A DNA stretch of 64,000 bases from Acidobacteria bacterium Ga0077534 (lineage in GTDB: Bacteria; Acidobacteriota; Blastocatellia; Pyrinomonadales; Pyrinomonadaceae), in NCBI GenBank assembly GCA_001464455.1, contig LNEI01000018.1:537343-601342 (forward strand), written 5' to 3'. The notes under the pieces are model-generated. The model made no database searches and was not told the DNA's origin. It worked only from the letters and a program-made list of their open reading frames with translations. This document shows positions 20,298 to 32,739 of the stretch, piece by piece; the first letter of the stretch is position 1, and every line of letters begins with the position of its first letter. Position numbers and translations under genes: made by a program.

Positions 20298-21413
20298 CTA
20301 TTTCACCAAGCTCCTACTCGTTAGTTCCGCCGTCGCAGCTTCGACCTTATCTTCCGCTTCCTGTTCTCCAAGCCATTTCAGCAATTCGGCGAGGCCGTCT
20401 TCGAGAGCGACCTTTGGCTCGTATCCGAGCATTTTTCTAGCTTTTGAGATGTCAGCAACGCAGTGTCGAATATCGCCTTCGCGGTATTTGCCAACGATGA
20501 CGGGTGCGATGTCTTTGCCTAGGCCGGCGGCTAGGAGTTCGGATATCTTCTTGATCGATGTTGCTCGCCCGGTGCCGATGTTGAACGAATGATAATCGCC
20601 GCCGCTCGTCTCCATTGCGAGCAGGTTTGCCTGGACGATGTCTTTTACATTGACGAAATCCCGCGACTGCTCACCGTCTTCAAAGATCGTCGGTGCCTGA
20701 TCATTTAGAAGACGTGACGAAAAAATCGCACACACGCCGGTATACGGATTAGACAGAGCCTGCCGCGTGCCGTAAACATTAAAATATCGAAAAGCGACCG
20801 TCGGTATCTTATACGCACGACCGACCGCGAGGCAGTATTGCTCCTGATCCTGCTTGCTTACGGCATAGACCGACGTTGGATAGAGAGGCTTTTCCTCGGT
20901 TGTTCCAATGGTTTTTAACTGTCCGCCGCATTCTTCGCACTTAAACTCCCAATCATGTGCCGCAAGCTGCTCGCTGGGCCGCAAGAAAGGATTCACGGTC
21001 TTGTTGCAGGCCTCGCAGCGATAGGCTCCTTCGCCGTAGATGGACATTGAGGAGGCGACGATGACCTTCTTAAACTGCCCGGGCCGCTTGATGATCTCCT
21101 CGAGCAAAACGGCCGTGCCGAGGTCGTTCGCCTTCACGTACCGCACGATCTCGTACATGGACTGGCCGACGCCGACCTCAGCTGCCTGATGATAAATGAC
21201 GTCAATGTCACTGAGAGCCTTCGCCACCGCCTCAGCGTCACAAACATCGCCCTTGATAAATTCAGCCTGCGGATTTAAGTGCTGCGGAACCGTCTGCCCA
21301 TGCACCTGCTCAACCAGCGAGTCCAAAATGCGAACCGAATGGCCGCGCTCGACAAGAGCGTCAACAAGGTGAGAGCCAATAAAACCGGCACCGCCGGTAA
21401 CTAAAATTTTCAT
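20298..21413 (-). CDS. NAD-dependent sugar-nucleotide epimerase (extended SDR) with zinc-ribbon insert
   Basis: A 371-residue extended SDR. GGAGFIGSH at 7-15 binds NAD, and the catalytic Tyr183 and Lys187 are in SVYAVSKQ. ALRYFNVYG-type sequence (VAFRYFNVYGTRQALSNP) follows. Between residues 131 and 165 there is an insert with paired cysteines C133/C136 and C159/C162, suggesting a small zinc-binding knuckle. The same insert occurs in a subgroup that includes dTDP-L-rhamnose 4-epimerases, so that activity or UDP-glucose/GlcNAc 4-epimerisation is possible. It would supply a sugar donor for the cluster. Spacing to the DUF4160 gene is eight bases. Confidence 0.88.
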   Translation of the reverse strand: MKILVTGGAGFIGSHLVDALVERGHSVRILDSLVEQVHGQTVPQHLNPQAEFIKGDVCDAEAVAKALSDIDVIYHQAAEVGVGQSMYEIVRYVKANDLGTAVLLEEIIKRPGQFKKVIVASSMSIYGEGAYRCEACNKTVNPFLRPSEQLAAHDWEFKCEECGGQLKTIGTTEEKPLYPTSVYAVSKQDQEQYCLAVGRAYKIPTVAFRYFNVYGTRQALSNPYTGVCAIFSSRLLNDQAPTIFEDGEQSRDFVNVKDIVQANLLAMETSGGDYHSFNIGTGRATSIKKISELLAAGLGKDIAPVIVGKYREGDIRHCVADISKARKMLGYEPKVALEDGLAELLKWLGEQEAEDKVEAATAELTSRSLVK

Positions 21414-21514
21414 TTTCTTTCAGGAAGAAACTTCGGATTTCGCAGATTACACCTGCTGAGAATACGAACTCGTACCCTTCGCGAGATATACGAGCAGATC
21501 CGCGACGATTTGCG

Positions 21515-22606
21515 TTAGTCCGTTGTTAGACCTCTTTTCGCCGCGGCCCGAAAGACCTCTAAAACCCTAGGCGCGATCGCTTTAGCGGAATAATCCTTCT
21601 CCACCGTCTCGCGCCCCGCTCGGCCGAGCTTCTTCCTTAACTCAGCCGAATGCATCAAACTTTTGATCTTCTCGATCCATTCATCCTTGCCGTCGGCAAG
21701 AAAGCCGTTCACTCCGTCTTTAATGATTGTAGAGTTTACGCCGACCGGCGAGCAAATGGTCGGTATTCCGAGAGCCATGTATTGTAAGGCTTTCAGGCCG
21801 CATTTTCCCTTCGTCCAATCCTCGTCTGGCAACGGCATCAGGCCGATGTCGATCGCCCTTAGGTCGTCTAGCTCTGTCGATGACCGCCACTGCAAGGCCT
21901 CGGTATCGACGCCCGGGATCTTATAAACCGGCGAACCGATAACTCGCATTCGAAAATTCTCAGTCTCGGCGAGCCCCTGCAGAGCTTCCCGGATCGTGTC
22001 CAGATGCTGTATCGTGCTAAAACTGCCGCTCCAGCCGATGGTTATCGTCTGCGGCTCGACTTCCTTCTCAATAAACTCGTATTTGTCGGTGTCGATGGTC
22101 GTAGGGATTATCGTCACGTTCGCGTTTTCGTTGCGTGCGTAATCGGCCAGGTATTCGTTACCGGCCATGACGTGCGTCGACAAACGGCATATTTCTGCGG
22201 TCTTTGCAGGAAATTTTAAATAGCTAAGATAGCCGTTCGACGGGCTTTTGTAGGAGACGAACACCGCATCGTCAAAGTCGAAAACGACTGGAACGCCCGT
22301 CTTCGCCATCTTTCGCTCGAACCACGGCGGGCCGAGAAGCGCCGCTTCGCGAAAAAGATAGACGAGGTCAAAATCGCCCGCATTTGAAAGCTCGCGGCTG
22401 CGGCGACGCATGTTCCGCGTGACGGCCGCTACCTTTTTCGCAACCTCGCCGCCTTTGTACAGCACGGCCCGCAGCTCGTCATTTTCGAACGGGACATAGG
22501 TGATCTCCACGCCGCCCGTGGCAAGTATCGGTTCCCATTGTTCGATCCGAAATCTCTGACCGGGCGATGTGTCGTAAACTGAAGGAACTACGGCAAGAAC
22601 GCGCAT
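21515..22606 (-). CDS. glycosyltransferase family 4
   Basis: A 363-residue GT-B enzyme. The N-terminal half begins MRVLAVVPSVYDTSPGQRFRIEQWEP and contains PVVFDFDDAVF. The donor half has TIGWSGSFSTIQHLDTI, CGLKALQYMALGIP and SPVGVNSTIIKDGVNGFL. The usual E-x7-E pair is not obvious, as in some GT4 subgroups. It probably adds one sugar to the growing lipid-linked chain. The gene is separated from the upstream GT by a 207-base gap that contains an inverted repeat, so it may start a second transcription unit. Confidence 0.88.
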   Translation of the reverse strand: MRVLAVVPSVYDTSPGQRFRIEQWEPILATGGVEITYVPFENDELRAVLYKGGEVAKKVAAVTRNMRRRSRELSNAGDFDLVYLFREAALLGPPWFERKMAKTGVPVVFDFDDAVFVSYKSPSNGYLSYLKFPAKTAEICRLSTHVMAGNEYLADYARNENANVTIIPTTIDTDKYEFIEKEVEPQTITIGWSGSFSTIQHLDTIREALQGLAETENFRMRVIGSPVYKIPGVDTEALQWRSSTELDDLRAIDIGLMPLPDEDWTKGKCGLKALQYMALGIPTICSPVGVNSTIIKDGVNGFLADGKDEWIEKIKSLMHSAELRKKLGRAGRETVEKDYSAKAIAPRVLEVFRAAAKRGLTTD

Positions 22607-22683
22607 ACCAAAAATTTAGATGGTAACAATCGCAACAGGCCATTGCAATGCGATTAACAGGTAGGTAGTGCTTCAGTTTCAAT

Positions 22684-22756
22684 CCTTTGTGATCTCTGCG
22701 TCCTCACTTTGTGGTCTTTGTGTTTAGAAAAATGTTAAACACAGAGATCACAAAGG
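22684..22756. repeat. 15-bp inverted repeat element in the 22607-22813 gap
   Basis: CCTTTGTGATCTCTG at 22684-22698 pairs perfectly with 22742-22756. An inner stem TGTGTTTA/TAAACACA lies at 22719-22726 and 22736-22743. The wording, built on CTTTGTG and CTCTGCGTCC, resembles the degenerate repeat text at about 32810-32850. No gene lies in this gap. It may end or insulate the upstream half of the polysaccharide locus. Confidence 0.6.
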
Positions 22757-22813
22757 GATGACACAAAGGCCATTGAGAAAAAGACCCCTTCAATTTTTTA
22801 ACCTGATGCTCTA

Positions 22814-24064
22814 CTAATTGGTAAGCGAATCGTAGAGCCGCCGATACCGTTCGCCGCCGACCGTCTCAAGATCGAACCGCCTGATCGCAACCTCGCGACA
22901 ACGTGGCCCGACATCGAGACGAAACCGTCGTAAACGAAAAATTGCGTTCTGATACGCGTCCCGGTCAAAGCCATCGATCAGTATGCCGACATTCTCCGTG
23001 GTGATCAGTTCGTCGACATCGCCAACGCAGGCGTTTGCAATGATCGGCAGGCCAGAGGCGAGGTACTCCGGGATCTTGGTAGGCGAACGCGATTGCGTCG
23101 CGTAGGTAGCCTTGACGAACGACAACCCGACATCCGAGGCGGCGAGATATCGCGGTATCTCGGCAGGATCGACGCGGCCGACAAAGTAGTCCCTATCGGC
23201 AAACCCACGCTCCTTCAACAGCTTGACGATCTCTGACGGGTCAGACTGGGTAAGAAATAGTGCAAACGTTCGCGCATCGAACTCGCGGGCAACCGCTAAG
23301 AAGTCCGCCATCTCCTTCGTCAGGTAGAGCCCGCCGAGTGCCCCGATATGCGTATAAACCGTTCGCCCGGCAACGCCGAGATGCTCACGCATCTCATCGC
23401 GGAGGGACGAACTTGGCTCAGGAAAGCGGGCTTCGAAATCGACGCAGCAGGGGATCACTTCGACGGGCCGTTGATCTTTGGCCTTTGATCTTTGATCTTC
23501 GTCGCCGAATAGCAGTCCACGGGCTTTCTCCGTAAGGACGACAAAGCCGTCGGCCTGATCCATCAGCCATTTCTCGACCCGCTTGGCACCGCGGTAGAGC
23601 AGGCCATTTTCCGGCCAAACGCCAGCGTCCGTGTATTCCTCGGGAAAAAAGCCGCGAATATCAAAGATCAGCTTCGGCTTATGCGACGAAAATTTACGAG
23701 CCAATGCCCCCATCAAAGTCGCAACATGAATGCGCCCGTGAAGCACGTCGAGCTTCTTTTCACGGATCTTGTTGCGAATAAACCGCGTTCCGTTGAAGAT
23801 ATCGTACGCGGTCGCCAGTGCGGAAGGCGTTTTGTGATAGGCAAGCAGATCCCAGTCGATTCCCTGCTGTATAAGCCCGTGCTTCCGGGCGGCGATCTGC
23901 TCCTCATTCCATTTAGACGAAAAGTCAGGTTCGAACGTTACAAGACTCACCTCGATTCCGCCCTTTACGAGTTCTCGAAGGTAAGGCAGAACCTGAGTCT
24001 GCACGAGCGGTTCTCGCAGTCCGAAGTAGCAGATGTAGAGCGTTCGCTTTGCCGGTTCAGTCAT
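22814..24064 (-). CDS. glycosyltransferase family 4 with an in-frame heptamer-repeat insertion
   Basis: A 416-residue GT-B enzyme starting MTEPAKRTLYICYFGLREPL. Donor-side motifs are VYTHIGALGGLYL and IPEYLASGLPIIANACVGDV, with VEVIPCCVDF before them. Between FVVLTEKARGLLF and VEVIPCCVDF lies the peptide DQRSKAKDQRP, encoded by four heptamers of the TTGATCT type at 23471-23498. This looks like a repeat inserted in frame into a surface loop before the donor domain. The 3' neighbour is the GT4 gene across a 207-base gap; its start overlaps the upstream methyltransferase by eight bases. Function should be preserved because the core motifs are intact. Confidence 0.88.
   Translation of the reverse strand: MTEPAKRTLYICYFGLREPLVQTQVLPYLRELVKGGIEVSLVTFEPDFSSKWNEEQIAARKHGLIQQGIDWDLLAYHKTPSALATAYDIFNGTRFIRNKIREKKLDVLHGRIHVATLMGALARKFSSHKPKLIFDIRGFFPEEYTDAGVWPENGLLYRGAKRVEKWLMDQADGFVVLTEKARGLLFGDEDQRSKAKDQRPVEVIPCCVDFEARFPEPSSSLRDEMREHLGVAGRTVYTHIGALGGLYLTKEMADFLAVAREFDARTFALFLTQSDPSEIVKLLKERGFADRDYFVGRVDPAEIPRYLAASDVGLSFVKATYATQSRSPTKIPEYLASGLPIIANACVGDVDELITTENVGILIDGFDRDAYQNAIFRLRRFRLDVGPRCREVAIRRFDLETVGGERYRRLYDSLTN
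23471..23498. repeat. heptamer tandem repeat (TTGATCT x4, one variant) inside a gene
   Basis: Four 7-base units, TTGATCT, TTGGCCT, TTGATCT and TTGATCT, lie within the GT4 coding sequence. A similar four-unit heptamer tract lies at 36131-36158 in the decarboxylase gene. Confidence 0.85.
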
Positions 24065-24788
24065 TTGAAAAATCGGCGAGAATTATCGCACGGTACGCGT
24101 TGGTTTCGTTCGCTTTTGGCATTGCGGGCAATAAAATTCCCGTTGCCAGATTGGCAGGCACGTAAAGAAATTTCGAGAGCGACGAAGCACGCCGCAGAAA
24201 ACCAACGACGGAGATGTTCTCGGAATAACTGGTTTTGATCGCCACTCGGCGCCCCGTCTGTCTTGCTTCTCGCTCGATCATCGCGGCGATGTCGACCGCG
24301 GCGGGATATTCGCTCGAGAGATGTTCGACAAGCCAGTCGGGTCGCGGTTCTTTACGGGCGTCGAGTTCGCGGGCGTACTTTTCGTCCATTTCTCTTGCGA
24401 TCGGGCCGCTCGGAAATGCGATGACGACCGCTTTCTTCGCCGCTCGAACGAGTTGATTCACAGCATTTTCTCTAAGCTCCACCGGCAGGTGTTCGAGTAC
24501 ATCGACCGAGACAGCGATGTCGAATTGCCGCTCATCGATCGGCAGCGAAAGAATGCTGCCATGCACGAATTCGAACCCCTCGACCCGCGTATCAGTCGGC
24601 AAAATATCGACGCCGACGACGTTCTTTGCATCGATAAACGCGGCCACGCCGTATTCGCCGCAACCAGCATCGAGTACTGTTGTTTTGGTCGTAATGCGTG
24701 GCTTTAGAATACGTGCGACATCAACGTTGCGGCAACGCGTATCCCAGGCATAGCTGTAGAGGAATTTTCGGATCGACGAGTTCGGCAT
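24057..24788 (-). CDS. class I SAM-dependent methyltransferase
   Basis: A 243-residue methyltransferase. Motif I is TVLDAGCGEYGVAAFI and is followed by VVGVDILP. The acidic loop and FDIAVSVDVLEHLPVELREN are the post-I and motif IV regions of the Methyltransf_11 group. The C-terminus has a hydrophobic segment FLYVPANLATGILLPAMP, possibly a peripheral membrane contact. Its end overlaps the next GT start by eight bases, and the upstream GT2 ends one base before it. Tight packing with glycosyltransferases suggests it modifies a sugar of the chain. Confidence 0.85.
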   Translation of the reverse strand: MPNSSIRKFLYSYAWDTRCRNVDVARILKPRITTKTTVLDAGCGEYGVAAFIDAKNVVGVDILPTDTRVEGFEFVHGSILSLPIDERQFDIAVSVDVLEHLPVELRENAVNQLVRAAKKAVVIAFPSGPIAREMDEKYARELDARKEPRPDWLVEHLSSEYPAAVDIAAMIEREARQTGRRVAIKTSYSENISVVGFLRRASSLSKFLYVPANLATGILLPAMPKANETNAYRAIILADFSND

Positions 24789-24789
24789 T

Positions 24790-25686
24790 CTATTCCGCTT
24801 TTACTCCTCTTCGATTTGCGGTTCGGCGGCCGAACGGAAGAAAGTGACGAATGTTGCCCGGCTCGCGAGCCAAGCTTTTGAAAGAATTCGCGGCAAATCC
24901 GGCGTACTGCCCCGCGTGATAATACGACCCGGCAAGGATCTGATAAAGATTGCCGTACGCCTTTTGTTTTACCGCTGCGATCTCGGGGCTTGGCGATGAA
25001 AAGGCTTTCTCGAATGCAAGCAGCATATCGTGTTCGAATACCGCGACATTAGTATGCATGTTCGAACCGTGAACTCGATATTTGACAAGTAATTCCGGAA
25101 CGAAACCGACCTCGTAACGCTCGCTGACCCTAAAGAACGTATCCCAGTCTGCCGAAGTCGAAAGCCGCTCGTCAACGCCGCCGATCTCGTCGAAAACGCT
25201 TCGCCGCAGCATCGCTCCGCTGCCGCCGCCGAGCACGCCTTCGCGGCCGAGCATTAGAAGGGTGGCAGAAACTTTACCTGCTGCTCCTTCGAGACGATGA
25301 ACGAGAGAATTGCCGTCGGGATCGACCTCGTCGACGCCGACATGGACCAGGCCAAAGTTGGGGTTTTCGTCGAATTTGGTGATCTGTTTTTCGACCTTGG
25401 TCGGAAGCCAGGCATCGTCGGCATCAAGGAAAGCGATGTATTCACCTGCGGCAGCATCGGCGCCATTATTACGGGCCGCGGCAACGCCCTGATTCTGCTG
25501 AAAGATCACAGTGATCTTTTCGCCATAACTTTCGAGGACCGCTCGCGAATCATCCTTTGAACCATCGTCGACGACTATGATCTCAATGTCCTTGTAAGTC
25601 TGATCGAGGACGCCGTCTATCGCCTCGCGCAGGTAATGTGCGTAGTTATAGTTGGGAATGATAACGCTGACGAGGCCTGATCTCAT
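24790..25686 (-). CDS. glycosyltransferase family 2 (GT-A fold)
   Basis: A 298-residue inverting-type transferase. SVIIPNYNYAHYLREAI opens the Rossmann-like nucleotide-binding half, IIVVDDGSKDDS supplies the first Asp pair, and YIAFLDADDAW holds the DxD-like metal site. GGSGAMLRRSVFDEIGG and ADWDTFFRVSERY complete the GT2 pattern. The C-terminus has no membrane helix, so it is likely a soluble cytoplasmic enzyme adding one sugar. Its start overlaps the upstream methyltransferase stop by four bases (ATGA), a strong sign of translational coupling. Confidence 0.92.
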   Translation of the reverse strand: MRSGLVSVIIPNYNYAHYLREAIDGVLDQTYKDIEIIVVDDGSKDDSRAVLESYGEKITVIFQQNQGVAAARNNGADAAAGEYIAFLDADDAWLPTKVEKQITKFDENPNFGLVHVGVDEVDPDGNSLVHRLEGAAGKVSATLLMLGREGVLGGGSGAMLRRSVFDEIGGVDERLSTSADWDTFFRVSERYEVGFVPELLVKYRVHGSNMHTNVAVFEHDMLLAFEKAFSSPSPEIAAVKQKAYGNLYQILAGSYYHAGQYAGFAANSFKSLAREPGNIRHFLPFGRRTANRRGVKAE

Positions 25687-26468
25687 TTGACTTTTCGAGC
25701 AATGACAAGAAGCGTCGGAGCTGTTTCCGTCTGACTTTGGTCAAAAACGTAGTCCGTTTCAGTCGGATAGAACGGCTTGTTCCAGATCGCTTCGCTCAAC
25801 CGTTCGCGCGCGGCAACGGGGATCTTGTTGAACATTTTCCAGGCTAGGAGCTGAGCCTGCGTGCCAGGATCCTTAGGTAAACGCTTCTGCCCTTCGAAAA
25901 AAGGTGATATCCGGAACGAACGATTAAGGTCCTGGCCAACAAAGCTCTCGATCTCAAAATGCCCTTCGATCTCGGCTCTCAGTTCGCCGGGCTCGTACTC
26001 ATGAATATGGAACGGATTAGCAGGAATACCATTCACCGGTTTCGAATAAAGTGCGTTCGGCGTGGAAAGGAGCAGCTTTCCACCCGGCGTCAGCACGCGT
26101 CGAAGCTCGGCGAGAAATTCCCGACGGGAATGCAGATGTTCGAGCGTCTCAAAGGATGTGACCGTATCAAAAGTATCATCCGCGAAAGGAAGCCCAAGCC
26201 CATCGGCGAGCATGACGGCACCGTTGTCGCCAGTTTCTTTCTTAGCTTCCTGAGCGGCTGAAGCATCTATGTCAACGCCGACGACGTAACTCGCGTGTTT
26301 CCTCAGAAGCCCGATGCCATAGCCCGTTCCACAGGCGATATCAAGAACTCGTTTTCCGCCTACAAATGGAAGGGCATACACGTACCGAGCGGCGTGCTCA
26401 CCCCAATATGGCGAGAGTCGGCCCGCATCGACAACATTTGCACCCTGAAATCTTTCCGAAACCGCCAT
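25683..26468 (-). CDS. class I SAM-dependent methyltransferase
   Basis: A 261-residue methyltransferase. KRVLDIACGTGYGIGLL is motif I, VVGVDIDASAAQEAKKE the ribose-binding acidic strand, and FDTVTSFETLEHLHSRREF motif IV. The N-terminus (FQGANVVDAGRLSPYWGEHAARYVYA) is like that of sugar or lipid methyltransferases found in glycan clusters. The stop overlaps the GT2 start by four bases, and the next gene upstream is a GT4 34 bases away. The acceptor is unknown. Confidence 0.87.
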   Translation of the reverse strand: MAVSERFQGANVVDAGRLSPYWGEHAARYVYALPFVGGKRVLDIACGTGYGIGLLRKHASYVVGVDIDASAAQEAKKETGDNGAVMLADGLGLPFADDTFDTVTSFETLEHLHSRREFLAELRRVLTPGGKLLLSTPNALYSKPVNGIPANPFHIHEYEPGELRAEIEGHFEIESFVGQDLNRSFRISPFFEGQKRLPKDPGTQAQLLAWKMFNKIPVAARERLSEAIWNKPFYPTETDYVFDQSQTETAPTLLVIARKVK

Positions 26469-26501
26469 TAACTAAACTATCGACTACGAGGCTATCAACT
26501 A

Positions 26502-27626
26502 TCAACCTTTGGGATAGTTATTTCTATGAATAAAATCGCGATAAAGTTCCAGGTGCCGCTCGACCATCCGGTCAGCAGAAAATCGTTCACGAACCGAATT
26601 CATTCCGTTTTCAGCGAGCGCGGTACGTAGTTGCTTGCTATGGATAAGCGAGAGGACTTGCTCCGCGATAGCGCGCGGATCGTCGGGTTCGATAAGGATT
26701 CCGTTCGACCCGTTCTCGATAACCTCGGCTGCACCGCCAACATTGGTTGCAACAACCGGGAGACCGCATCCCATTGCTTCGATCAGAACTTGTGAAAACG
26801 CTTCGCTCAGGCTCGGCTGAACGAAAATGTCCATTGCGTTGTACACCGCCGCCACATCGTCATGCCAGCCAGCAAAGGTTATCCTGCGGCCGAGCCCCAG
26901 ACGTCCGACGGTATCATCGACTTCTTGCAGCTTTCCGCGGCCGACAAGTATGAGCTTAGCATTTGGAACTTCAGCCTTGATCGCGTCGAATGCATTGATC
27001 AACTGCACGTGGCCTTTTCCGGCGGCAAAATTCCCGACGTAGCCGATCACGATATCGTCATCCGCAAATCCATACTCGGCCCGTGTGACCGCTCGCTTTT
27101 TCGCGTTTGGCGACATCTGATCGAAATCGAAACCGAGATACGCTACCTCGATATCGTCGCGGCGGATGCCGTCGACATCGATCATGTAACGCTTCGCGGC
27201 CTCGGACACCGTCATCACGTAGTCCGCTTTTTCTGCCATCCACTTATCTGCTGCTACATGAAATCGCGAACCGAGCATACGTACAACGCCCGTATGGTGC
27301 CGCATCAAAGCGAAGATCGTTTTGCCGAACTTCTTCCGCGCAAACGCAGCCGCGAGGCCTGAGTAGAAAAGATGGGTGTGGAGAATGTCGATGTTTTCGG
27401 TCGCAACCAGTTCGGCCAATTTTCGCCTTGCCGCGAATATCTTTCGGCTCCCGCTCGCGTCGAGCGATCTGTAGGTAACGCCCGGAAATTTCGCTAGCCA
27501 TGTCGGCGCGGTTCCGCTGCCGAGTTCGACTAGCAAAACTTCGACGCCTTTAGCCGTCAAACCGGCAGTAATATTTCTGAAATAATCGCCCGCGACCGAA
27601 CCGTCGCACAGGTGGCAGACTCGCAT
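26502..27626 (-). CDS. glycosyltransferase family 4
   Basis: A 374-residue GT-B transferase. The acceptor half begins MRVCHLCDGSVAGDYFRNITAG and has ILHTHLFYSGLAAAFA. The donor half has VIGYVGNFAAGKGHVQLI, then SEAFSQVLIEAMGCGLP with the E-x7-E pair, and GGAAEVIENGSNGILI. These are the standard GT4 donor-site motifs. Its start coincides with the stop of the FkbM gene at 27626. The enzyme should extend the lipid-linked glycan on the cytoplasmic side. Confidence 0.92.
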   Translation of the reverse strand: MRVCHLCDGSVAGDYFRNITAGLTAKGVEVLLVELGSGTAPTWLAKFPGVTYRSLDASGSRKIFAARRKLAELVATENIDILHTHLFYSGLAAAFARKKFGKTIFALMRHHTGVVRMLGSRFHVAADKWMAEKADYVMTVSEAAKRYMIDVDGIRRDDIEVAYLGFDFDQMSPNAKKRAVTRAEYGFADDDIVIGYVGNFAAGKGHVQLINAFDAIKAEVPNAKLILVGRGKLQEVDDTVGRLGLGRRITFAGWHDDVAAVYNAMDIFVQPSLSEAFSQVLIEAMGCGLPVVATNVGGAAEVIENGSNGILIEPDDPRAIAEQVLSLIHSKQLRTALAENGMNSVRERFSADRMVERHLELYRDFIHRNNYPKG

Positions 27627-28393
27627 TATCTAGACGGTATCAGATTCACGTCAAAAAGGTTATCCTGGCCACAAAACCAATCCTTCCCGACCGGATCTCC
27701 GTCGTACACAACGTCAACGTCATATTCATCGAGCACATCCCAGATCTCCGCAAGCGACTGCCCGTTCTGCATAATAAACGGGGGATGCAGACCGAGTCGC
27801 ACGACGGGGCGAAGCTCGAGAAACGTTTTTCGCGCACCGCGAAGCACATCAAGCTCGACCCCCTCGACATCTATCTTCATACAATCGACTTTAAGGCCTT
27901 TTTCCTCGACAAACTCGTCGACGCTGATAAGACTAATCGGAATCTCGGTCCGGCTTCGCTCAGTCCGCACTAAAGAATTGGCATTCGATATGGTATCGCC
28001 CGTGTCATAAAAGACTGTACTCCCACGTTTGCTGGAAACCGCTTCCGAACGCACTTCGACAATGCCCGAAACACCGTTCAAAGCGACGACTTCCTCTAGA
28101 ACTCCGCGGGTAAACGGCGTCGGCTCAAAGGAAAATACCTTGCCGCTTTCTCCGACCAGCCGAGCAGTCGTAACGGCAAAAAGGCCGATATGTCCGCCGA
28201 TATCCAGAACGGTATCACCCTCATTCAGATTCTCTCGAAAAAAGCGAAACGTTTCCGGCTCATAATCGCTCTCGTAATATCGGCTCCACCTCGCAGGAAA
28301 GCGTATCGTCTCGCCGCTGATGCGCCGGGAAACACCGCGCCCAAACGTAACGGCGTTCAAAACGGAATATGCGATCTCTTTTACCTGTGACAT
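27626..28393 (-). CDS. FkbM-family methyltransferase
   Basis: A 255-residue protein with the FkbM pattern: DTVLDIGGHIGLFAVTTA, VFSFEPTPFTRGVLEEVVA, and KVDCMKIDVEGVELDVLRGA. FkbM-type enzymes O-methylate hydroxyls of polyketides and of sugars in surface glycans. It is the first gene of the polysaccharide locus on the minus strand, 81 bases after the M1-like gene, and its stop overlaps the GT4 start by one base. A sugar O-methyltransferase role is the best inference. Confidence 0.87.
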   Translation of the reverse strand: MSQVKEIAYSVLNAVTFGRGVSRRISGETIRFPARWSRYYESDYEPETFRFFRENLNEGDTVLDIGGHIGLFAVTTARLVGESGKVFSFEPTPFTRGVLEEVVALNGVSGIVEVRSEAVSSKRGSTVFYDTGDTISNANSLVRTERSRTEIPISLISVDEFVEEKGLKVDCMKIDVEGVELDVLRGARKTFLELRPVVRLGLHPPFIMQNGQSLAEIWDVLDEYDVDVVYDGDPVGKDWFCGQDNLFDVNLIPSR

Positions 28394-28474: not shown

Positions 28475-30568
28475 CTATCTAACGGCCGTCGTCGACTTCT
28501 CTCGCGGGTCGTACGGGTTTGCCATAAATTTCTTCACGGCTTCCTGCGCGTTGTCGTAATTGTCACCGATCGCCTCGGCACGTTTATACGCCGCAACCGC
28601 ACGCGTACGGTCGCCCTTGCCATCGTAAGCATTACCCATCTTTACGTTGGACCAAACCGACAACCAAGCAGGGTTTAGGTTTCCACCCAGCGCAGCCTTG
28701 AAATTGTCGATCGCCAGGTCGAAGTTCCGCTGTTCGAGGAAAAGCAAGCCTAGGTGGTAATAGATCCAAGAATTCGAGCGGTCGAGTTTCAAGGCCGCCT
28801 CGAACTGCACCTGAGCTTCGGCATAATTCCCTTCCTTAAACTGCTCGATACCGCGTCGAGCAATAGAAGATACGCGAAGGTCAGGCGATATCCGCAAAAG
28901 CTTGTAGCCCGGGTCGATGATCACAGCGATCGGCTTGCCGTCTGATTCAATATTGAAGTCCGCGCTTGATTCTTCCATGTCCAGCTTGACCGTCGTCAGG
29001 CCCTGATCGCCTTCGGAACGAAGCTGGATCTCGACCGGCAGCCGGAGATTATCGTAGTTTTGCTTTACCGTTCCACGTGTTACGAACTTACCGCCGCGGG
29101 TTCGAATGATCAGGTAGTCGCTTGTAAATTCCGGAACACCAGTGCCCTCGACCCAGCGAGCAAAAAAGTATCGCATCGGCTGTCCCGCCAACTGCGAGGT
29201 AAGCCTCTCGAAATCATCGATCGACGCCGCCTTGCCGCGGTACTGCTGCAGGTAAGTTCGCAGCAACTGATCAAACTTCTGATCCCCCAGCGTCTGGCGC
29301 AGCAGCTTGTAAACAAAGGCTCCTTTGCCGTACATCAAATACTGATAAGCACTGCTCTGGTCATCGAGATTTGCCGGAGCACGCAGTATCGACGCGGTCT
29401 GCTCGAAGGTCAGCGACTTTTCCAAAAGTTCGCGTCGAAGCGAATCGAGTTTCGCACCGTCCATTTCCGATTCACGAAGAGAAAAGGCACTGTACTCCGC
29501 AAGTCCCTGCGACAGCCATACGTCGTCAAACGATTTAAGGCCGACGGTCAGGCCCCACCATTGATACGCAGCTTCGCGCTGGAGCCGCGTAAACGTCACA
29601 TCCCGAGCCTCTTCGAACGGACGAGTCGCAACGAAGAGCATGCCTTTCGATGAATAAAAATCCAGGCTCTCATCGTCGATCTGGGCGACGAGCATCTTTT
29701 TACCATAATCCGCAGGCCCAAAGCGCTTTGTGTAGTCAACAAGAGCCTTGCCAAGCGTCTCGCCGTATCTTGCGGTTTGATCTTCGGTTCCCGGCTTTGT
29801 AAAGAACTGGATCTCCTGATCGCCGATCCGCAGAGTTCGCGGCGTGTACTTGCCATAGGCAAAATTCCCGATCAGAGCGGGTGTCGCCTGGACGAATCTG
29901 GTCTTACCTCCAACATTAGCAACCGGAGCATCGCTATAACCAACAAGCTGATAGCCTGCAGGCAGCGAGATACTTACGTCAGACGTAGCTGGGTCAGCCG
30001 CGTAGTCGTGAAACGGAAACCAGCGAGCCGCGTACATCAGATACCCGTCATTTGCCCCGACCGACGCAAGCCGTTTCGAAAGAAGCGGGCCGCCGGCCGG
30101 CGTCTCGAGAATGCCGCTGTATTTGAATCGAAGAGTGACGGGCGTTCCCTTTGCAATGCTCTCGCCCAGATCAATTCGAACGTGAGGCCCGAGATCACTG
30201 GAATTCGACTGATCCTGCACAAACGTAACGATGGACTGCGGTGTCGGGGCCGGCCTCGGCGCCGTTGAACGAGCGGTGGGTGGGTTTACAACCGTCGCGG
30301 CAATGCCGGGCCGGTCTTGCCGAACGATGCTGTCGACTTTTAACGACCCGTTCAATTCGAATGAAACCGAGCGGGCGCCCTCGAGCGGAGTAAATGTGAC
30401 GTCGACCGTCGCATCGAGCTTGCGCTCCGTCGGCGAGAGGGTGACATCCATCACATAGTTCGTTACGTCGAAAGGAGTTCGCTTCACTGCCTGTGCCAGA
30501 ACCGGCACGCTCAGAAGTATCGTGAAAAATGCTAACTTAAGCCCGCTTTGTAGAATCTTTGTCATCAT
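28475..30568 (-). CDS. secreted M1-aminopeptidase-like protein lacking the zinc site, with C-terminal TPR
   Basis: A 697-residue exported protein with a signal peptide ending VPVLAQA near residue 27. Residues about 30-230 resemble the M1 N-terminal beta domain, and residues about 240-500 the gluzincin-type catalytic domain, with WWGLTVGLKSFDDVWLSQG and YGKGAFVYKLLRQTLG. The zinc motif HExxH-x18-E reads R331-E-A-A-Y335 ... Q354, so both His and the distal Glu are replaced and catalysis is not expected. The last 130 residues are TPR units (NSWIYYHLGLLFLEQRNF). It may be a binding or scaffold protein of the periplasm or outer surface. Next on the strand is the FkbM gene, 81 bases away. Confidence 0.85.
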   Translation of the reverse strand: MMTKILQSGLKLAFFTILLSVPVLAQAVKRTPFDVTNYVMDVTLSPTERKLDATVDVTFTPLEGARSVSFELNGSLKVDSIVRQDRPGIAATVVNPPTARSTAPRPAPTPQSIVTFVQDQSNSSDLGPHVRIDLGESIAKGTPVTLRFKYSGILETPAGGPLLSKRLASVGANDGYLMYAARWFPFHDYAADPATSDVSISLPAGYQLVGYSDAPVANVGGKTRFVQATPALIGNFAYGKYTPRTLRIGDQEIQFFTKPGTEDQTARYGETLGKALVDYTKRFGPADYGKKMLVAQIDDESLDFYSSKGMLFVATRPFEEARDVTFTRLQREAAYQWWGLTVGLKSFDDVWLSQGLAEYSAFSLRESEMDGAKLDSLRRELLEKSLTFEQTASILRAPANLDDQSSAYQYLMYGKGAFVYKLLRQTLGDQKFDQLLRTYLQQYRGKAASIDDFERLTSQLAGQPMRYFFARWVEGTGVPEFTSDYLIIRTRGGKFVTRGTVKQNYDNLRLPVEIQLRSEGDQGLTTVKLDMEESSADFNIESDGKPIAVIIDPGYKLLRISPDLRVSSIARRGIEQFKEGNYAEAQVQFEAALKLDRSNSWIYYHLGLLFLEQRNFDLAIDNFKAALGGNLNPAWLSVWSNVKMGNAYDGKGDRTRAVAAYKRAEAIGDNYDNAQEAVKKFMANPYDPREKSTTAVR

Positions 30569-30653: not shown

Positions 30654-30953
30654 TCAGCTCCGTTCACTAATAAAATCGACCGATACGACTTTTTCCGCTA
30701 TTCCACGGCCGATCGCGGCTACAGCTTGATGCTCCGGATGAGCATCATATTCGTCAAGCCCACCCCGATCGTCAAACTCAACGACCAGCCCGGTATCGAA
30801 AGACCGTTCAAGTGAAAGCAAATCCGCCCCGACGTCCAGCCTGCGAACCGAAGGGATGAGTGAGGCAAGGGCAGCGAGGCGTGCACGATGGTCATTTCGC
30901 ACCTCGTCACTAACGTCGGGCCCGTATTTCCAGCAAACTATGTGAATCAGCAT
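30654..30953 (-). CDS. Dabb-domain (stress-responsive alpha/beta barrel) protein
   Basis: A 99-residue protein with the dimeric alpha/beta-barrel pattern: MLIHIVCWKYG, then LASLIPSVRRLDVGADLL, TGLVVEFDDRGGLDEYDAHPEHQAV and VVSVDF. Homologues form small homodimers that can bind or act on hydrophobic ligands, but most have no assigned role. It is divergent from the lipocalin-like gene, with 121 bases between the starts. The function here is unknown. Confidence 0.85.
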   Translation of the reverse strand: MLIHIVCWKYGPDVSDEVRNDHRARLAALASLIPSVRRLDVGADLLSLERSFDTGLVVEFDDRGGLDEYDAHPEHQAVAAIGRGIAEKVVSVDFISERS

Positions 30954-31074: not shown

Positions 31075-32244
31075 ATGAGTCAAAACTTTTTCAAACCTCT
31101 CGAATATTACGCATCAACGGCTCTCGACGGGGTAGCATCTATCCTCGGCTACGGCGGCGGGAAACTGGACGACGCTCCGATGGACGGAACAGTTACGCTC
31201 CCGGACGACCTCTTCGCACAAAAGAACGCACAGACCGAATGGTGGTATTACACCGGCCACTGCGAGACGGCGACCGGACGAGAATTCGGATTTGAGCTCG
31301 TCTTCTTCAAACGCCGGACCGACCTCGATCGTCTCGGCGTTGTCCCCATGACGGCTCTCGCTAACCCGATGTACTTCGCCCACTTTGCGATCTCGGATAT
31401 AACTCGGGGTAAATTCACCTACGATCACATGCGAAGTTTTGATAAGCCGTTCGACAATCCTGTCTCGATGAGCGAAACGGCGTGTGACATCCGCCTGGGC
31501 GACTGGACGCTGCGTGAAGTAGCCGGTAAACACCTGCTTCACGCGACGCTTTCGGACGGAACCGTTTTCGATGCGGTACTTGAATCCGAAAAGCCGATCG
31601 TCATGAACGGCGAAGGCGGCAGCGGCATCACCCTCAAGAAATCAGGAGCATCGAAGCATTTTTCGTACACACGAATGCGTGTCGACGGACAGTTGAATGA
31701 GAACGGTTCTGTCGAGCGATTCACCGGCAAAGCATGGATGGATCGCGAGTACGGCATTTGGGAACAAGGCGAATGGGATTGGTTCTCGATACAGTTTGAC
31801 GACGAAAGCGAGCTGATGATCTACCAGTTTGACGATGCCGGCGGCCATGTAAAAGGCGATTCAACCGGAACCTATGTCATGCCAGACGGAACCTGCGAAT
31901 CTCTAAAACGAGCGGATTTCGAGATCGAAGCGACAGACTTTTGGACTAGCGAACGAACCGGGGCCGAGTATCCTAGCGGCTGGAACGTAAAGGTAGCGAA
32001 ACTGGGCATCGACATCCACATCGAGCCATATATCGAGGATCAGGAACTAGACACCCGCGGCTCCACGATGATCGTCTATTGGGAAGGAGCCTGCTCGGTA
32101 AACGGTACCAAGGCCGGCACCCCGGTAAAAGGCCGTGCCTACGTCGAACTAGTCGGCTACGACCGCTCGCATGAGACGGCGGGGATCGCTGATTTTCTTT
32201 TTGGCGGTTCGATCAAGGAGATCAAGGAATGGCTTCCTTTATAG
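31075..32244 (+). CDS. CrtC/AttH-like lipocalin-domain protein
   Basis: A 389-residue protein with the double-lipocalin fold of hydroxyneurosporene synthase (carotenoid 1,2-hydratase)/AttH. The signature is KNAQTEWWYYTGHCETATGR followed by FGFELVFFKRR. KAWMDREYGIWEQGEWDWFS and SGWNVKVAKLGIDIHIEP mark the second barrel. No signal peptide is visible, unlike many AttH homologues. CrtC members add water to a carotenoid end; the function of others is unknown. No carotenoid genes are nearby, so a hydratase role is not supported by context. A GC hairpin follows the stop. Confidence 0.82.
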   Translation: MSQNFFKPLEYYASTALDGVASILGYGGGKLDDAPMDGTVTLPDDLFAQKNAQTEWWYYTGHCETATGREFGFELVFFKRRTDLDRLGVVPMTALANPMYFAHFAISDITRGKFTYDHMRSFDKPFDNPVSMSETACDIRLGDWTLREVAGKHLLHATLSDGTVFDAVLESEKPIVMNGEGGSGITLKKSGASKHFSYTRMRVDGQLNENGSVERFTGKAWMDREYGIWEQGEWDWFSIQFDDESELMIYQFDDAGGHVKGDSTGTYVMPDGTCESLKRADFEIEATDFWTSERTGAEYPSGWNVKVAKLGIDIHIEPYIEDQELDTRGSTMIVYWEGACSVNGTKAGTPVKGRAYVELVGYDRSHETAGIADFLFGGSIKEIKEWLPL

Positions 32245-32280: not shown

Positions 32281-32739
32281 CTAGGTTTCGCTCTCACTCT
32301 CACACCACTCTTTCGTCATTCGATGCCGATACTCGAACATCTTCTCGATCCTCGGCAGGATAAAGAGCGGCGCGGCTAGGTCACCGATGAACGACATTGG
32401 CGGTTCAAAGTCGATCTCGTCTCTCAGCACCGCCCCCTCTGCATGCGGATCAATAAAATGCCCATGCTTCCAGCTAGCAAACGGCCCTGAGACCTGAATA
32501 TCCTCAAAATATCGCGGCGGATCGTACGCAGTATGCTCCGCGACCCACTTCGCAGGGATCAGTCCGAAGATCTTTGTTTCAATGATCGCCCGCGAGCCGA
32601 TAACAGAAATATCCGCCTTCTGAATGACCTTTGCATCCTCAAAAGGCGGCACCAGCCGCTCAAACGCATCCGGCAGTTGATGAAACGCAAAAACCCGCTC
32701 CGGCGACGCTTTTATTACTGTCTCTTTTTTATACTTCAC
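32281..32739 (-). CDS. SRPBCC (START-like) ligand-binding protein
   Basis: A 152-residue single-domain protein with the helix-grip pattern: ETVIKASPERVFAFHQLPDAFERLVPP, then an Arg/Glu-rich beta sheet including YDPPRYFEDIQVSGPFASW and HAEGAVLRDEIDFEPP, and a C-terminal helix ending KMFEYRHRMTKEW. SRPBCC proteins bind hydrophobic ligands or act as cyclases. It has no signal peptide. It converges with the CrtC-like gene across a hairpin, and a 1.3-kb repeat-rich gap lies upstream. The ligand is unknown. Confidence 0.82.
   Translation of the reverse strand: MKYKKETVIKASPERVFAFHQLPDAFERLVPPFEDAKVIQKADISVIGSRAIIETKIFGLIPAKWVAEHTAYDPPRYFEDIQVSGPFASWKHGHFIDPHAEGAVLRDEIDFEPPMSFIGDLAAPLFILPRIEKMFEYRHRMTKEWCESESET

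Follow-up and report, generated by a model that had tools for sequence, protein, structure and literature searches.

The gene at positions 28475 to 30568 of the window, the whole 64,000-nucleotide stretch of acidobacterial DNA analysed here, encodes a protein of M1 aminopeptidase descent, and there is strong evidence that this protein (the pseudo-M1 protein) is a pseudoenzyme, with its zinc site broken and its fold and gene kept by selection. A pseudoenzyme retaining the M1 fold was what the original prediction had proposed for this gene, and the proposal is upheld by the lack of intact ligands in all of 160 family members compared, by their grouping in one clade, by low dN/dS, and by structure models with the M1 fold. 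The features referred to below are as follows.

28475..30568, minus strand: pseudo-M1/TPR gene, 697 amino acids from ATG to stop with no internal stop; orthologous frames occur in relatives.
30491..30568, minus strand: signal-peptide-like N-terminus, residues 1-26, a hydrophobic core followed by LAQA; no lipobox seen.
28913..30472, minus strand: M1-like part, residues 33-552, consisting of an N-terminal saddle, a catalytic-type domain and a beta-sandwich, from the AlphaFold model and its ERAP1 and LTA4H matches.
29651..29662, minus strand: place of the G-x-M-E of GAMEN, residues 303-306, here D-F-Y-S with the Glu absent, from alignment.
29564..29578, minus strand: place of HExxH, here R331-E-A-A-Y335, from the sequence and the states of the family.
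29507..29509, minus strand: place of the distal zinc Glu, here Q354, from the sequence.
29330..29332, minus strand: Y413, at the presumed place of the transition-state Tyr, from alignment; the position is not conserved as Tyr, being F in 52 and Y in 49 of 103 Blastocatellia rows.
28520..28885, minus strand: C-terminal TPR domain, residues 562-683, from Pfam and the model; the best conserved part in members outside the class.
30654..30953, minus strand: neighbouring upstream gene with a Dabb domain (Pfam PF07876), 85 nt away.

The sequence features first reported for the gene were all found where they had been placed: the unbroken frame of 697 codons, R331-E-A-A-Y335 and Q354 at the zinc positions, the WWG, DDVWL and KGA regions (retained as W337-W338-G339, an FDDVWL block and Y413-G-K-G-A), and the added C-terminal TPR units. 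A Pfam scan of the protein matched Peptidase_M1 (PF01433) to residues 302-472 with 63.7 bits, the cut-off being 27.7. TPR_1, TPR_2 and TPR_16 also exceeded their cut-offs, the TPR models spanning residues 571-667; the 14 Pfam families reported at E values up to 0.1 comprised M1, TPR and three weak others, with no M48. All four family members scanned exceed the Pfam M1 cut-off, so that an annotation based solely on family membership would label them as aminopeptidases. In the alignment with M1 members that had been proposed as a check, for which M1 proteins from the same phylum with an intact zinc site were used, R331, E332 and Y335 stand opposite the H, E and H of HExxH and Q354 opposite the distal Glu, so that the three lost ligands pair with H, H and E. 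The general-base residue E332 and Y413, which we take to occupy the position of the transition-state Tyr of M1 enzymes, are still present in the window protein.

The glutamate of GAMEN aligns with S306 in all 10 GxME-bearing homologues of a joint alignment, and in none of the 160 family members was there a Glu at 306 or a GxME within the 60 residues preceding 331. G309-M-L-F was considered as the GAMEN place and rejected, because the joint alignment puts the motif at residues 303-307 and its Glu at S306. A GxME-type motif is also missing from several HExxH-bearing homologues (L003, L205, L209, L212, L214, L215 and L217), so its loss is not special to the family and is a weak criterion of membership. 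Given that several HExxH-bearing homologues of the sister groups in the tree are among those without the motif, GAMEN may have been lost before zinc binding was.

Ligand states were tabulated for 146 distinct members, later extended to 160. Position 331 is R in 124, N in 29, K in 5, and S and L in one each; it is His in none. His is found at position 335 in 27 members and Glu at position 354 in 11, never both together, so that at most one canonical zinc ligand survives in any member. Glu at position 332 is found in 102 of the 160, every one of them among the 103 Blastocatellia rows. At the zinc and general-base positions the Blastocatellia pattern is R-E..Y/F/L..Q; that of the largest family outside Blastocatellia (f15, which we guess to be the Acidobacteriaceae) is N-T/A..H..N/D; and the remaining groups are mostly R/K-R/K..variable..D/E. 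The same substitutions recur throughout the window's class, beyond what chance would give: in 38 aligned sequences, its own included, R331 is found in 38, E332 in 37 and Q354 in 36, and in the 103 Blastocatellia rows the counts are 103, 102 and 101 respectively, with D, N or E at position 354 in the others. W337, W338, G339, F347, D348, W351 and G355 are each present in all 103. Members of f15 that are linked to lpxB (L157, L159, L160, L161, L164, L168 and similar) retain N331, H335 and D or N at 354, which may possibly form a residual metal site, one without the general-base Glu.

Of 247 Acidobacteriota genomes that were 90% complete or better, 86 gave a match at E ≤1e-67, which in three of them was partial or split. 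The carriers comprise all 29 genomes of the window's class, its own included (the Pyrinomonadaceae belong to the class Blastocatellia), and 57 of the 218 outside it. The other matches listed score no higher than 182 bits, and those that were read are ordinary HExxH-bearing M1 proteins. In a search of 40 genomes, again with its own included, 39 gave a match at E ≤1e-90, some of these being fragments at contig ends, and only G036 gave none at that threshold. A scan of contigs, using patterns drawn from the window's class and limited to the best 80 of 171 loci, found the gene in records from Pyrinomonadaceae, Chloracidobacterium, Aridibacter, Blastocatellia and other Acidobacteriota. In genome G002 the orthologue at L029 is broken by an in-frame stop near residue 90, through either decay or assembly error.

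Nei-Gojobori estimates of dN/dS in 19 close pairs, which are not independent of each other, were 0.028-0.097 over the whole gene and 0.011-0.082 over residues 305-480. Close relatives with intact ligands had been named at the outset as the sign of a sequence error or recent decay; none was found among the 160 members, and full-length frames recur. With R at position 331 in every one of the Blastocatellia rows and dN/dS so low, the idea of an active enzyme that has been misread or has only lately decayed was rejected, and the chance that it is correct is negligible. Sequence comparison shows that the loss of the zinc site is old and shared, and that the gene is under strong purifying selection.

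HExxH and the distal Glu are intact in all 23 of the other M1 homologues examined, five of which are from the window's own genome. These 23 were drawn from 26 loci, of which L007, below the cut-off, showed no motif, and L223 and L224 proved to be members of the family. The own genome has seven M1 loci, a number that includes the pseudo-M1 gene and one locus below the cut-off. In a tree of 67 rows, 45 of them family rows picked from the 146 and with L006, L007, L223 and L224 omitted, the family lies on one side of a branch with SH-aLRT 98 and the zinc-competent M1 proteins on the other; within the family, Blastocatellia (SH-aLRT 100) and the rest (95) form two parts. The tree was built by a quick method with SH-aLRT as its sole measure of support, and M1_L205, M1_L001 and M1_L005 were flagged as long branches. 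The simplest history would be that the first His was lost once, ahead of the split between these groups, and that the other residues then drifted separately. The nearest architecture met outside the family is that of L205:1023-3017 (minus strand, genome G090), which has C-terminal TPR matches below cut-off; it differs in having HEIAH...E intact, in the weakness of its TPR, and in its long branch outside the family clade. It is possible that L205 may serve as a model of an active ancestor. An M1-like flank ORF at L106:663-2573 (plus strand), also outside the family, has HVVAH...EG, in which the zinc ligands are kept and the general-base Glu is replaced, and it is a candidate for another pseudo-M1.

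A structure model had been suggested as a further check, and it returned the M1 fold, at a Z score of about 26 for the window protein and about 34 for a relative. The AlphaFold2 model of the window protein, built on a 31-row alignment, has a mean pLDDT of 85.4 and a pTM of 0.82, and it matches ERAP1 (3qnf; Z 26.1, 484 residues, 4.4 Å) and LTA4H (4gaa; Z 26.0, 410 residues, 2.8 Å). The model of the lpxB-linked member L176 (pLDDT 89.2, pTM 0.85) matches LTA4H (3fts; Z 34.5, 416 residues, 3.1 Å), and in both models the C-terminal TPR region contains seven helices. The predicted arrangement is thus an M1 fold with a TPR solenoid after the beta-sandwich, at the place taken by domain IV in full-length M1 enzymes. 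Judged solely from the matching of folds, the groove would be kept and the metal site empty. The top 50 Foldseek matches include the TFIID entry 7edx_B, a chain which is presumably TAF2.

The distribution of conservation along the protein also differs from that of active M1 enzymes. Averaged over pairs among 43 members outside Blastocatellia, identity rises from 0.36 in the core through 0.48 in the beta-sandwich to 0.53 in the TPR part, whereas in five groups of zinc-competent M1 proteins, three of which are single pairs, it is the core that shows the highest conservation among these parts. In nine Blastocatellia rows the values are 0.494 for the core, 0.515 for the TPR and 0.442 for the sandwich. 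Conservation has therefore shifted from the core toward the TPR and sandwich outside the class. In Blastocatellia the shift is slight and toward the TPR only, and this tells against any strong form of the argument from the TPR domain.

Gene neighbourhoods were compared at 110 loci, the window and 109 others, with median flanks of about 6.4 and 5.4 kb and a match defined as E < 1e-15 over 60% of the length. The original prediction had suggested that the protein is a partner of the adjacent polysaccharide locus, and the gene for an FkbM-type methyltransferase at 27626-28393, on the same strand and 81 nt away, would be in keeping with this. For none of the eight genes at 20298-28393, however, did the flanks at the other 109 loci yield a match, and in relatives of the same genus the neighbours differ from those in the window. 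Homologues with the same substitutions do exist, but within the flanks compared none lies beside these polysaccharide genes, and a role tied to this particular locus is most improbable.

Outside the class, the recurrent neighbour is lpxB, for lipid A disaccharide synthase, found upstream in the same orientation in 54 of the 57 carriers. In 41 of 43 of these genomes it is present with 400 nt or less between the matches (39 genomes) or about 1.5-1.6 kb (2 genomes), and it is upstream in 13 of a further 14, L233 showing a piece of lpxB at the contig start. The three genomes in which it was not seen upstream are G053, G256 and G109, the last of which has a contig that stops about 0.5 kb before the gene. 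The gap between lpxB and the pseudo-M1 ORF is -4 nt in L169 and L175, for ORFs as called, the larger overlaps at other loci being a product of choosing the longest ORF. An mnmA-like gene, named by eye, often lies upstream of lpxB. In Blastocatellia, lpxB is on another contig or more than 300 kb away in all 25 carriers with visible coordinates. The window's own genome (G000) gave no match to LpxB, which all 10 other members of the genus searched possess; it does have LpxC and LpxI, and the absence reflects an assembly gap or a loss. At least one of the lpxI-, lpxA-, fabZ-, ompH- and bamA-type genes (named from Pfam, except fabZ, which was recognised by eye) is present in the flank of 18 Blastocatellia loci out of the best 80 of 171. 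In one group of these loci the lpxI-bamA-type cluster lies on the opposite strand, facing the pseudo-M1 gene, so that the two are not co-transcribed; this neighbourhood may represent one ancestral event.

The linkage to lpxB, together with the lpxI-lpxA-fabZ-ompH-bamA cluster of one group, points to a process in the biogenesis of the outer membrane or LPS, and we tentatively favour the view, at somewhat less than an even chance, that the protein is an exported pseudopeptidase of M1 origin acting there as a client-binding scaffold. An ancestral M1 aminopeptidase would have become a metal-free exported pseudopeptidase, whose place would be the periplasm or the outer membrane if a crude scan of N-termini is a guide to export: an AxA lies within 25 residues before the domain in 100 of 146 members, and a lipobox-like pattern is found in five. 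The dead M1 groove might then grip a peptide in extended form, or an unfolded stretch of protein, and leave it uncut, while the TPR face might dock onto a conserved partner, the whole serving as a chaperone-like or scaffold factor, as the linkage would suggest. Its mode of working would resemble the non-proteolytic activity of BepA, reached independently. That the clients are those of LPS export or of BAM, the family having arrived by an independent metallopeptidase-TPR route with catalysis discarded in its ancestor, is possible but doubtful. LpxB is a cytoplasmic enzyme, so co-transcription with lpxB need not mean physical partnership. Against an outer-membrane role stand the Blastocatellia carriers without lpxB linkage and the G000 genome without an LpxB match; against the metal-free reading, the f15 members with N331, H335 and D or N at 354, which could still bind metal.

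It might be argued instead that the work is done by the TPR domain, with the dead M1 body serving only as a structural platform and no client in its groove. The superior conservation of the TPR and beta-sandwich outside Blastocatellia, and the variation of position 331 between classes (R, N, K, S or L), are as this would have it, but the near invariance of the pseudo-active site in Blastocatellia suggests a selected role there, and on balance a pure scaffold is rather unlikely. The near invariance of the substituted residues in 103 sequences could also be taken to mean that the R331/E332/Q354 set of Blastocatellia performs some new, metal-independent chemistry. This seems very unlikely, as outside the class the corresponding residues are N/T/H/N, R/R/Y/D and others; the set is not common to those members, so that any such activity would be clade-specific.

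If the protein regulated an active M1 paralogue or served as its decoy, binding the same substrates or pairing with the enzyme, it would find five HExxH-bearing homologues in its own genome, and a review notes, in the excerpts available, that inactive homologues sometimes regulate their active cousins (PMC11266112). The flanks compared at the 110 loci showed no M1 gene with HExxH, their one M1-like ORF being that of L106 with HVVAH, and the linkage that recurs is to lpxB; such a function is unlikely. The signal-peptide-like N-terminus and the retained M1 fold would also suit an exported protein that captures extracellular peptides for nutrition or signalling. The absence of the GAMEN Glu, the recurrence of lpxB as the neighbour outside the class, and the lack of any peptide transporter or sensor among the annotated neighbour families, most families being unannotated, make this decidedly unlikely.

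The favoured scaffold in outer-membrane or LPS biogenesis has partial precedents. With the M1 aminopeptidases (PF01433; PepN, LTA4H, ERAP1, tricorn factor F3) the pseudo-M1 protein shares the fold and the WWG, DDVWL and KGA blocks; it differs from them in lacking both zinc His residues, the distal Glu and the GAMEN Glu, and in having a C-terminal TPR domain. Metallopeptidase pseudoenzymes have, to our knowledge, mostly been described in eukaryotes. TAF2 of TFIID, a zinc-free, nuclear, eukaryotic protein, is likewise an M1-like scaffold. A review of pseudometallopeptidases names, in the parts accessible, the yeast M1 homologue Tma108 as the M1 case: it keeps all its active-site residues but one, binds nascent chains at the ribosome, and may act non-catalytically with nascent proteins in its substrate pocket (PMC11266112). 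Unlike Tma108, the pseudo-M1 protein has lost its zinc site and appears to be exported. BepA of Escherichia coli has a metallopeptidase-type domain followed by TPR, as here, and excerpts of two papers describe it as periplasmic and, beside its proteolysis, chaperone-like on LptD at BAM (PMC8423444, PMC7950410). BepA is nevertheless a zinc-active M48 enzyme, and the likeness is one of analogy, with no homology shown. According to the same excerpts, the protease-dead BepA E137Q, in the assays quoted, fails to complement and behaves as a dominant negative (PMC7950410), and it only partly relieves LptD-C accumulation (PMC8423444); this impairment counts against a simple transfer of the BepA mode to the pseudo-M1 protein. 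A non-peptidase described in an excerpt of PMC4242634 was considered for comparison and set aside because it belongs to M13, not M1. No paper recognised as describing the pseudo-M1 family was found in the literature covered, which left out most subscription journals. The family is a bacterial M1 pseudopeptidase, retained in several classes of a phylum that is abundant in soil and linked to lpxB, and this linkage provides a testable hypothesis on the assembly of the acidobacterial outer membrane.

Other genes also recur upstream of the pseudo-M1 gene. Among relatives' loci, taking the best 80 of 171, a Dabb gene is found upstream in 30, and a gene for a CehA/McbA-like PHP metallohydrolase, for example L056:4560-5765, in 31. 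The CehA/McbA-like protein scores 69.6 bits where the NCBIfam cut-off is 80; its gene is absent from the window, and a search run without a positive control gave no match in the own genome. Further upstream in the window are a CrtC/lipocalin-type gene at 31075-32244 on the plus strand, whose family is represented in 10 of the 110 loci, and a polyketide-cyclase-like gene at 32281-32739 on the minus strand, whose family is represented in 21, the window being included in both counts.
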